Part shown: positions 2,948-5,599 of the stretch, piece after piece
Numbering within the stretch: position 1 is the first letter of the stretch
How the letters are laid out: each line of letters starts with the position of its first letter
Source of the DNA: Pseudomonadota bacterium
GTDB lineage: Bacteria > Pseudomonadota > Gammaproteobacteria > Burkholderiales > Thiobacteraceae
Assembly: GCA_021812385.1 (NCBI GenBank)
Contig: JAKANO010000002.1
Location: 239,485 to 303,484, forward strand
Direction of reading: 5' to 3'
DNA length: 64,000 nt
Notes under the pieces: model-generated
The model's input: only the letters and a program-made list of their open reading frames with translations
Databases searched by the model: none
Told to the model about the DNA's origin: nothing
Made by a program: the position numbers and the translations under genes

Positions 2948-3642
2948 TTCGCTATGCCTTGCACGTCTTTAAGGGAAATCCTATGGTAATTTTCCGGCAA
3001 CTCGAAGGCCTTCGGCCGTACTGCGACATCCGCTTCGTAGTGCAATAAACGGCGCGAAAAGCCGCTGACGCGCACCTCGTCGAATGGCATGCCATATTTA
3101 AACCAATATTGCGGCGCCAAAATCAAGCGCGCTAAATCACAATCGTCGCGCTGATCCACCGGCGTCGCCAAATAAGTATTCGACTGCGTTGCCGCCATCA
3201 ACTCCTGGAACTCCAACAAGGCCTTTGCCACATCGGGAAGAAAGCGCTTGGAAGCAGCAATGCGCGAACACACCGTGCCATTCACAACCAAGTCCACGCG
3301 TATCTCCGAAGCCTTATTTTCTAAAATATCCTCCTTGATTTCCCATTTTTGCGGCGGCTTGACTTGCACGATGCCGGGCTCGAATACCAAGATTTCCTGC
3401 TTGTCGTTATTGACGCTGTAAACGCGCCGCTCCTTGCGGTCAAACAGCACAAAATCATCGCGATCACGCCCAAAGTCGAGGCGCAAATATCGAGCGGTGA
3501 CGAGGTAACGGGTGACATAGCCCCCGCCGGCCGCCTCTTGATCCATATAGTTGAGCTCGGTCATCCCGCCCAGGGCCAACACGGGGCTCGACCAAGCTGA
3601 GCCGAGCAGGGCCAGCAGCAAAATGTGACGTAGATATCTCAT
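2944..3642 (-). CDS. Exported protein of unknown function
   Basis: 232 aa with a clear signal peptide (MRYLRHILLLALLGSAWSSPVLA). The mature part is mostly beta-strand-like with one Cys pair (VCSRI and DDCDLARL) and no motif I recognise as catalytic; overall it looks like a periplasmic beta-rich protein. It overlaps metZ upstream and the DUF4124 gene downstream by 4 nt each (ATGA junctions), so it belongs to the metZ transcript and would share its SAM-dependent control. I do not recognise a named family. Confidence 0.7.
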   Translation of the reverse strand: MRYLRHILLLALLGSAWSSPVLALGGMTELNYMDQEAAGGGYVTRYLVTARYLRLDFGRDRDDFVLFDRKERRVYSVNNDKQEILVFEPGIVQVKPPQKWEIKEDILENKASEIRVDLVVNGTVCSRIAASKRFLPDVAKALLEFQELMAATQSNTYLATPVDQRDDCDLARLILAPQYWFKYGMPFDEVRVSGFSRRLLHYEADVAVRPKAFELPENYHRISLKDVQGIAK

Positions 3643-4817
3643 GGCAATAGGTCGAATCCTCTTTGCAAATCGCGCTTAATATCTTCCACCGATTCCAGCC
3701 CGACCGCAATCCTGATCAGGCCGTCATTAATGCCTGCTGCTGCACGCTGCTCCGGCGTCAAGCGCCCATGCGTGGTACTGGCAGGATGCGTGATGGTGGT
3801 CTTGGTATCGCCCAGATTGGCGGTGATGGACAACAGTTGCGTGCTGTCGATCACCTTCCAGGCCGCCGGCTTGCCGCCCTTTACTTCGAACGACACGATG
3901 CCGCCGCCGGTTTTTTGCTGCCGCATTGCTAGTGCATGCTGCGGGTGAGACGGCAGGCCGGGATACAGCACGCGCGCAACTTGCGGCTGCGCCTCTAACC
4001 AGCTGGCCAATGCCAATGCACCGGCCGAATGCGCGTCCATGCGAATGCGCAGCGTTTCCAGCCCTTTCAAAAAGATCCAGGCATTGAATGCCGAGAGTGT
4101 TGGCCCGGCGGTGCGCAAGAATTGATACACTCCTTCCATCAAGGCCTTGCTGCCCAGCACCGCGCCGCCCAGCACGCGGCCTTGGCCGTCGATGTATTTG
4201 GTGGCGGAATGGATCACGATATCCGCACCCAAATCCAAAGGGCGTTGCAGCATCGGCGTGCAGAAACAATTGTCGACCGCGAGCCAGGCGTCATGCCGAT
4301 GCGCGATCTCGGCCAAGGCGGTGATATCGCACACTTCGGTCAGCGGATTGGAAGGCGTTTCGGCAAAGAACAGCTTGGTATTCGGTTTGCAAGCCGCTTC
4401 CCACTCGTCCACGTCGGTGGGCGAAACAAACGTCGTCTCGACACCAAAGCGCTTGAGAATATTGTTGAACAGTTGCACCGAAGCGCCAAATATCGCACGC
4501 GAGGCGACGATGTGGTCGCCCGCCGAAAGCAGACCCATCGCGCAAGCGAGAATCGCCGACATACCGGACGCCGTGGCCACGCAATACTCCGCGCCTTCCA
4601 AAGCCGCAAGGCGCTCCTGGAACATACTCACCGTGGGGTTGGTGAAGCGCGCATAGATATTGCCGGGTTCCTCGCCGATAAAGCGCTTGGCTGCCTGCTC
4701 CGCCGAATCGAAGACGAAGCTCGATGTTAAAAACAAAGCTTCGGAATGCTCATGAAACTGGCTGCGCTGTATGCCGGCGCGCACCGCCAAAGTATCCAAA
4801 TCATATTTATCAGTCAT
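3639..4817 (-). CDS. metZ: O-succinylhomoserine sulfhydrylase
   Basis: PLP enzyme of the Cys/Met metabolism family that makes homocysteine from O-succinylhomoserine and sulfide in the cytosol. Family motifs include YARFTNPTVSMFQERLAALEG, ATASGMSAI, and the Schiff-base lysine in HSATKYIDGQGRVLGG. The track begins at 4958, but the true start is the ATG at 4817 (MTDKYDLDTLAVRAG, 392 aa): it has AAGGAAA 6 nt upstream, and the extra 47 codons would run through a riboswitch and terminator. Its position beside the purF block matches the common gammaproteobacterial purF-metZ order. It could accept O-acetylhomoserine, but metZ fits best. Confidence 0.95.
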   Translation of the reverse strand: MTDKYDLDTLAVRAGIQRSQFHEHSEALFLTSSFVFDSAEQAAKRFIGEEPGNIYARFTNPTVSMFQERLAALEGAEYCVATASGMSAILACAMGLLSAGDHIVASRAIFGASVQLFNNILKRFGVETTFVSPTDVDEWEAACKPNTKLFFAETPSNPLTEVCDITALAEIAHRHDAWLAVDNCFCTPMLQRPLDLGADIVIHSATKYIDGQGRVLGGAVLGSKALMEGVYQFLRTAGPTLSAFNAWIFLKGLETLRIRMDAHSAGALALASWLEAQPQVARVLYPGLPSHPQHALAMRQQKTGGGIVSFEVKGGKPAAWKVIDSTQLLSITANLGDTKTTITHPASTTHGRLTPEQRAAAGINDGLIRIAVGLESVEDIKRDLQRGFDLLP

Positions 4818-4868
4818 GCTGGTTTCCTTATTTGGCCCCTCACGGGCTAGATCAAATAGACCGGGCAT

Positions 4869-4903
4869 AAAAAAACCCGGACAGCCAAAGCTAAACCGGG
4901 TTT
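4869..4903 (-). terminator. Intrinsic terminator in the metZ leader (riboswitch expression platform)
   Basis: On the minus strand AAACCCGG, a 15-nt loop and CCGGGTTT are followed by a T-run, giving a textbook intrinsic terminator about 50 nt before the metZ ATG. The loop contains CTTTGGCTG, which can pair with CAGCTAAAG (4910-4918) at the 3' edge of the SAM-II aptamer (9 bp including one G-U). The two stems are mutually exclusive with aptamer folding or termination, so the loop strand looks like an antiterminator. Confidence 0.8.
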
Positions 4904-4958
4904 CCCTCACTTTAGCTGGATTTATTACGCGCCCGCAAGCTGATTCAAATCGGCGCAA
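4898..4958 (-). ncRNA. SAM-II-type riboswitch aptamer upstream of metZ
   Basis: The minus strand carries the SAM-II core: P1 strand GCGCC, then GATTTGAATC, GCTTGC, the closing GGCGC, GTAATAAAT and GCTAAAG. Block order and spacing agree with what I recall of SAM-II aptamers (GATTTNA, GCTTGC/GCAAGC, TAAA, GCTAAAG). SAM-II binds S-adenosylmethionine in an H-type pseudoknot and represses Met genes, and metZ is a typical target. The aptamer lies in the metZ leader downstream of a sigma70-like promoter. I could not score it against a covariance model. Confidence 0.85.
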
Positions 4959-4969
4959 AACATGTTTAT

Positions 4970-4998
4970 AAATTACGCGACAATTTCCATGGCGTCAA
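4970..4998 (-). promoter_or_regulatory. Putative sigma70 promoter of metZ
   Basis: On the minus strand TTGACG (4993-4998) and TAATTT (4970-4975) are separated by exactly 17 nt and lie just upstream of the SAM-II aptamer. This would give a leader of about 145 nt starting shortly before P1. It lies downstream of the higA stop, so metZ need not depend on higBA transcription. Confidence 0.55.
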
Positions 4999-5008
4999 GA
5001 CAGAAAAA

Positions 5009-5308
5009 TTACGCCGCGACTTTTAGCGGTTCGATCTTCGCCACCGCACGTTTTAGCGATTTCTCAGCTTGCCATAAATCGTAGTTGGCTTGCATGTGCA
5101 ACCAGGATTCAGCGTTGCCGCCAAGCGCGGCGGTGATTCGCACGGCCATATCGGCACTAATACCCGCCTTGCCGTTGAGCACGCGGGAAAGAGCAACGCG
5201 CGTCACGCCGATCCGCTTAGCGAACTCTGTCACGGTAATTCCGGTGTCCGTAAAAACGCCATCCCGAAGAACTTCGCCAGGATGTGGCGGGTTATGCATT
5301 CTGCTCAT
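5009..5308 (-). CDS. higA: HigA-family antitoxin (XRE/VapI type)
   Basis: 99 aa. MHNPPHPGEVLRD is the hallmark opening of HigA/VapI antitoxins. It is followed by a helix-turn-helix (TEFAKRIGVTRVALSRVLNGKAGIS) and the family segment AVRITAALGGNAESWLHMQANYDLW. The protein neutralises HigB and represses its own operon through the HTH. It lies 12 nt after higB in the toxin-first order typical of higBA. A 23-bp palindrome in the promoter is its likely operator. Confidence 0.92.
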   Translation of the reverse strand: MSRMHNPPHPGEVLRDGVFTDTGITVTEFAKRIGVTRVALSRVLNGKAGISADMAVRITAALGGNAESWLHMQANYDLWQAEKSLKRAVAKIEPLKVAA

Positions 5309-5320
5309 ACTGCCCTCTTC

Positions 5321-5599
5321 TCAATGATAGTCTTGGTAGTCAACGAGTACCACATCGCCGCCCTCGAAAGAAAAAGTCATTCTCCAATTACCATTAACTG
5401 ACACAGCCCAATACCCCCTCAAGTCTCCTGTCAGCGGGTGCAACCTCCACCCAGGCAAATCCATATCCTTTGGTGATTTTGCGGTATCCAACTTACCTAG
5501 CTGCAACCGCAACCGCTTAGCATGGGATGGCTGAATCCCGGCTTTAATGCCCGCCTTAAAGAAATCCTCAATACCCTTGTGCCGAAATGATTTAATCAC
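5321..5599 (-). CDS. higB: HigB-family toxin (RelE/ParE superfamily mRNA interferase)
   Basis: 92 aa, the normal length. It opens MIKSFRHKGIEDFF and contains the family core HAKRLRLQLGKLDTAKSPKDMDLPGWRLHPLTGDLRGYWAVSVNGNWRMTFSF. The Arg/Trp-rich C-terminal strand corresponds to the ribosome-dependent RNase site of RelE-like toxins. The start codon is GTG (5599), not ATG. It lies only about 6 nt past the predicted -10 box, so the mRNA may be leaderless. The pair sits in an AT-rich islet between purF and metZ, which suggests acquisition by transfer. Confidence 0.92.
   Translation of the reverse strand: MIKSFRHKGIEDFFKAGIKAGIQPSHAKRLRLQLGKLDTAKSPKDMDLPGWRLHPLTGDLRGYWAVSVNGNWRMTFSFEGGDVVLVDYQDYH

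Follow-up and report, generated by a model that had tools for sequence, protein, structure and literature searches.

A SAM-II riboswitch with a predicted transcription terminator platform upstream of metZ

The metZ locus and its leader

The window, by which we mean the whole 64,000-nucleotide stretch of DNA analysed, carries metZ on its minus strand. Two protein models, NF006003 and TIGR01325, assign its product as O-succinylhomoserine sulfhydrylase with scores over their cut-offs (Table 1), which bears out the target gene named in an earlier sequence-only reading of this DNA. Upstream of metZ lies a leader made up of an aptamer and, directly behind it, an intrinsic terminator with a hairpin of -17.7 kcal/mol and seven T; metZ is the next gene after this terminator. 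Genes for a HigA antitoxin (5009-5308, minus strand; TIGR02607, 104 bits) and a HigB-like toxin (5321-5599, minus strand; PF05015, 69 bits) are located between purF and the metZ leader. A sigma-70 promoter scan returned no match at the set threshold.

Table 1 Features of the metZ leader and its surroundings in the window
Feature	Position	Strand	Basis or remark
SAM-II (SAM_alpha, RF00521) riboswitch, whole-model match	4894-4966	-	30.7 bits, below gathering score of 36
P1 5' strand GCGCC	4952-4956	-	pairs with 4933-4929
Strand A, P2 5' strand TCAGCTTGC, in P1 loop	4935-4943	-	P2 pairing with GCTAAAG(T)GA
GCTTGC	4940-4935	-	read from sequence
P1 3' strand GGCGC	4929-4933	-	pairs with GCGCC, 4956-4952
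GTAATAAAT	4928-4920	-	read from sequence
Strand B, P2 3' strand CAGCTAAAG and TGA	4907-4918	-	core GCTAAA(G) (nearly) invariant in alignment A1
GCTAAAG	4916-4910	-	pairs back into loop as pseudoknot P2
Terminator 5' arm (T5), AAACCCGG (4903-4896) plus TTTAGC	4890-4903	-	TTTAGC complementary to GCTAAA of strand B
CTTTGGCTG, antiterminator strand of the sequence-only reading	4882-4890	-	9 bp with CAGCTAAAG
Terminator 3' arm (T3), GGCTGTCCGGGTTT and U tract	4869-4886	-	sequence, hairpin energy
CCGGGTTT	4880-4873	-	read from sequence
Seven T	4875-4869	-	read from sequence
AAGGAA, Shine-Dalgarno-like	4824-4829	-	outside aptamer and terminator
metZ, O-succinylhomoserine sulfhydrylase	3639-4817	-	NF006003, 725 bits; TIGR01325, 614.5 bits; both over cut-off
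Antisense match to Rfam RF02424 (Bp2_287)	4870-4988	+	31.5 bits, model 1-174; taken as the riboswitch and its terminator in reverse complement and not as an sRNA in its own right

The sequence-only reading had assigned the leader to the SAM-II class and suggested a search with the SAM_alpha covariance model. RF00521 matches over the whole model at 30.7 bits (E = 2e-5 in the 251 nt searched), which is under the curated gathering score of 36 bits. The genome-wide E value is 6.1e-5, and this is the sole credible match in the 3.3-Mb genome, the next having an E value of 1.45. A default Rfam scan of the entire 64-kb window gave zero matches, and it is silent on the leader because the score lies below the gathering score. 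The conserved core of SAM-II (GATTTG, GCTTGC, and GCTAAAG) is present in full, and GATTTGAATC is found on the minus strand among the aptamer elements. All sequence elements named in the earlier reading occur on the minus strand where it had placed them; its arrangement of GTAATAAAT and GCTAAAG inside the GCGCC/GGCGC stem was wrong, as both lie 3' of the stem and GCTAAAG pairs into the loop as P2.

Conservation and covariation among relatives

In the order to which this bacterium belongs, 81 of 150 genomes match RF00521 at E <= 0.05. We gathered 130 leaders from relatives, whose genomes carry L-numbers here (L039 and L040 are the nearest), and built a covariance model, R1, from a 31-sequence alignment (A1) of such leaders. 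The window leader sits in that alignment, so its own R1 score is circular; its RF00521 score is not. With R1, the aptamer is detected in 112 of the 150 genomes of the order and, across the class, in 70 of 143 genomes that each represent a separate genus. Of 80 named metZ loci, 38 have it ahead of metZ. Most SAM-II elements of the order thus fall under the Rfam cut-off (26/150 genomes pass, versus 112/150 with the local model), a point that concerns annotators and researchers of methionine regulation alike. The genes downstream of the 130 leaders are mostly metZ and metX; metH comes next, and metK and MATE transporter genes occur a few times. These sequence comparisons settle the identity of the aptamer, which is found before metZ, metX, metH or metK across the order.

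P1 and P2 together are paired in 97.0% of the cells of the 31-sequence alignment, compared with 94.8% when shuffled and 27-58% when slid. P1 is paired in 99.4% of these cells and is kept, with compensatory changes, in all 98 unique leaders. P2 is paired in 95.4% of cells; its outer pair occurs as UA, UG, AU, CG, GC, and GU, with six compensatory cells. That pair forms in 66 of the 98 unique leaders against 44.7 expected, the maximum in 2,000 shuffles being 60. Compensatory changes are present in both P1 and P2, and the two helices covary among relatives; together with the RF00521 match, they support the assignment to SAM-II. The SAM-II riboswitch before metZ is real and well supported, and it is of a kind already known.

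Several relatives carry variant arrangements. In the metX leaders of L018 and L032, the SAM-II 3' strand continues into AGAGG just before the ATG, giving GCTAAAGAGG immediately ahead of the start codon, and a terminator is absent; from their sequence, these are likely translational SAM-II switches within the same order. Tandem SAM-II elements (~200-480, sense strand) occur in L155, L189, L162, L165, L129, and L135, where a standard aptamer and terminator are followed by a variant aptamer that lacks a clear terminator. The second aptamer reads GA[TG]TTAA...GACAACTTGC...GCTAAAGCGTCGCC, slightly different in L165 and L135. Downstream of the L155 tandem come a 111-amino acid protein that matches nothing in Pfam and a MATE transporter. 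The ACAACTTGC variant aptamer also stands alone before metK (by TIGR01034) in L195 and, by its sequence, possibly constitutes a separate SAM-II subclass. In the SAM-II variants of L199 (~1530-1620) and L203 (~1517-1600), P1 and GCTAAAG are separated by an additional hairpin; neither genome appears among the RF00521 matches listed.

The terminator and a possible strand exchange

A hairpin of -12 kcal/mol or lower followed by a T run occurs in 111 of the 130 leaders, mostly within ~20 nt of the aptamer. Along with the hairpin and T run of the window leader, this supports the transcriptional OFF platform and the terminator/antiterminator layout that the sequence-only reading had predicted. Judged from its sequence, the metZ leader is most probably (about 0.87) a SAM-II riboswitch joined to a transcription terminator platform that would turn metZ off when S-adenosylmethionine (SAM) is plentiful. 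Translational control through hiding of the ribosome-binding site is unlikely at metZ because AAGGAA sits ~80 nt past the aptamer. Separately, the CCGGG in the 3' arm of the terminator is able to pair with CCCGG right after the T run (4880-4861, minus strand). This alternative hairpin is the only one flagged by a simple terminator scan, and its pairing is also part of the minimum-energy fold of the 101-nt leader.

Against 88 non-redundant SAM-II terminators we set 236 control terminators, drawn from the same loci but not located behind an aptamer. Six-nucleotide words complementary to strand A occur in 25 of the 88 and in 3 of the 236 (p = 7e-13), and those complementary to strand B in 19 and 4, respectively (p = 1e-8), with kinship not fully removed from either comparison. 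Reversed decoys and other aptamer segments showed no enrichment of complements in the same sets. Complements of strand A fall in the 3' half of the terminator (28:2) and those of strand B in the 5' half (22:1), as an exchange between A:B plus T5:T3 and B:T5 plus A:T3 would predict. When each family is represented by one leader, the signal holds for strand A (9/27 versus 3/236) and is weaker for strand B (4/27 versus 4/236); A or B complementarity is clear in only 18 of the 27 families. The complementarity that is conserved links GCTAAA with the 5'-arm TTTAGC and CAGCTTGC with the 3' arm. The window leader has the B:T5 match GCTAAA/TTTAGC, retained in L039 and L040, and a weak A:T3 match, CAGCT/GGCTG. 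The same complementarity between P2 and terminator was seen by eye in alpha-proteobacterial leaders.

In the probable mechanism of the metZ leader, SAM binding would draw strand A (CAGCTTGC) and strand B (GCTAAAG) together into P2, which would leave the terminator arms free to pair, stop transcription, and release a leader RNA of ~100 nt. In the absence of SAM, the first partner of strand B would be the 5'-arm TTTAGC, and the next one, in this genome, CTTTGGCTG; a match of strand A to the terminator 3' arm is added in many relatives. Folding of the terminator would be delayed and metZ transcribed. We further propose, at somewhat less than even odds, that SAM-II leaders with terminators share a four-strand exchange, in which the pairs A:B and T5:T3 form with SAM and the pairs B:T5 and A:T3 without it. 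The two arms of the terminator would then have evolved as mimics of the P2 strands.

The sequence-only reading had described an OFF switch whose antiterminator is the CAGCTAAAG/CTTTGGCTG stem. The complement itself is genuine, comprising 9 bp with one G-U, or 10 bp with one further base; it is the most favourable fold for transcripts of 85-89 nt and belongs to the fold of the 101-nt leader. Its role as the antiterminator is nevertheless doubtful: L040 has the stem in broken form and L039 lacks it, pairing of strand B with the terminator 3' arm is not enriched among the 88 terminators (p = 0.93), and the shuffle p value for 9 bp is only ~0.02 (452 of 20,000 shuffles of the terminator inner segment reach 9 bp with CAGCTAAAG).

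When the window leader was folded stepwise, a B-based antiterminator formed at transcript lengths of 75-89 nt and gave way to the terminator once 91 nt had been made; with strands A and B blocked, as in the SAM-bound aptamer, the terminator alone formed. At equilibrium, the terminator wins also without SAM, with a free-state probability of 0.99. In a partition-function test at equilibrium, native leaders suppressed the terminator no more than chimeras with unrelated terminators. An unusually strong antiterminator at equilibrium is unsupported, as the chimeras behaved no less like a switch. Because the terminator wins at equilibrium either way and the chimeras are no less switch-like, the switching mechanism is one that we infer; if it is right, kinetics probably decide between terminator and antiterminator, as the final state of greater stability is the terminator.

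The equilibrium preference for the terminator with or without the strand block would also suit a real aptamer followed by a constitutive attenuator, with SAM acting on RNA stability or promoter activity and not on termination. In Sinorhizobium meliloti, SAM levels affect promoter activity as well as the stability of RNA, and no response to SAM is predicted for the metA terminator (PMC9373788). We consider a constitutive attenuator improbable in the metZ leader, where the terminator arms hold position-specific complements to both P2 strands, a feature unexpected for a plain terminator. The strand-exchange signature, if true, would offer a concrete, mutable design for transcriptional control by SAM-II.

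Relation to published elements

RF02424 (Bp2_287, or Bp2_Cand287_SIPHT) is modelled as an sRNA on the strand opposite to SAM-II. Khoo et al. 2012 placed Bp2_Cand287 between purF and metZ, in the same DNA as the leader described here, and suggested that it might act in cis in methionine metabolism (PMC3521395). The full-length RF02424 match on the plus strand would fit an antisense small RNA of this type, but its 31.5 bits fall short of the family cut-off of 70. We reject this reading as extremely improbable. Both the conserved letters and the compensatory pairing belong to SAM-II, all 20 RF02424 matches (E <= 1e-3) that overlap SAM_alpha lie on its opposite strand, and the RT-PCR offered in support (oligo-dT cDNA, then PCR) is, as described, strand-blind. 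The sole RF02424 match over the cut-off, in L199, lies between purF and metZ, and its sense strand is SAM-II-like with an extra hairpin. From these sequences, RF02424, the "Burkholderia sRNA Bp2_287", appears to be the reverse strand of a SAM-II aptamer.

Leyn et al. 2014 (PMC4239095) describe a "novel" metXZ element in beta-proteobacteria, with conserved blocks that form a pseudoknot and terminators behind, and give SAM_alpha as found only in Rhizobiales and Rhodobacterales. The element shares its lineage, its metX/metZ targets, its pseudoknot-forming blocks, and its terminators with the metZ leader; it differs in having been published as novel. Compared through its published description and the loci found here, it appears to be the SAM-II aptamer. 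The sequence-only reading had described SAM-II as best known from Alphaproteobacteria and often translational. Neither a terminator nor a beta-proteobacterial host is unusual for SAM-II: Barrick and Breaker 2007 had already reported both (PMC2258182), and beta- and gamma-proteobacteria also figure among the SAM-II carriers listed by Meyer et al. 2009. A SAM-II riboswitch before metZ with a terminator is thus already known, and in this group it was overlooked or filed under two other names. What appears to be new, on the basis of sequence, is the reconciliation of SAM-II with the metXZ element, as the same RNA, and with RF02424, as its opposite strand; no paper joining the three was found in the literature searched, which left subscription papers mostly outside. 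The metZ leader alone is one more SAM-II riboswitch, and the value of the analysis lies in this annotation reconciliation and in a testable strand-exchange hypothesis.

The metZ leader resembles SAM-II (RF00521) in its P1, its L1 GATTTG, its GCTTGC and GCTAAAG, its P2 pseudoknot, its methionine target gene, and the terminator behind it. It differs from RF00521 in its shorter P2 extension and its GCGCC/GGCGC P1, and it scores below the Rfam cut-off, as do most SAM-II members of the same order. A published parallel in layout is the metZ leader of S. meliloti, in which Scheuer et al. 2022 described SAM-II followed by a predicted Rho-independent terminator, together with the RZ sRNA of ~100 nt, whose level goes up when SAM is high (PMC9373788). 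S. meliloti is an alpha-proteobacterium with in vivo data, whereas the metZ leader described here is known from its sequence.
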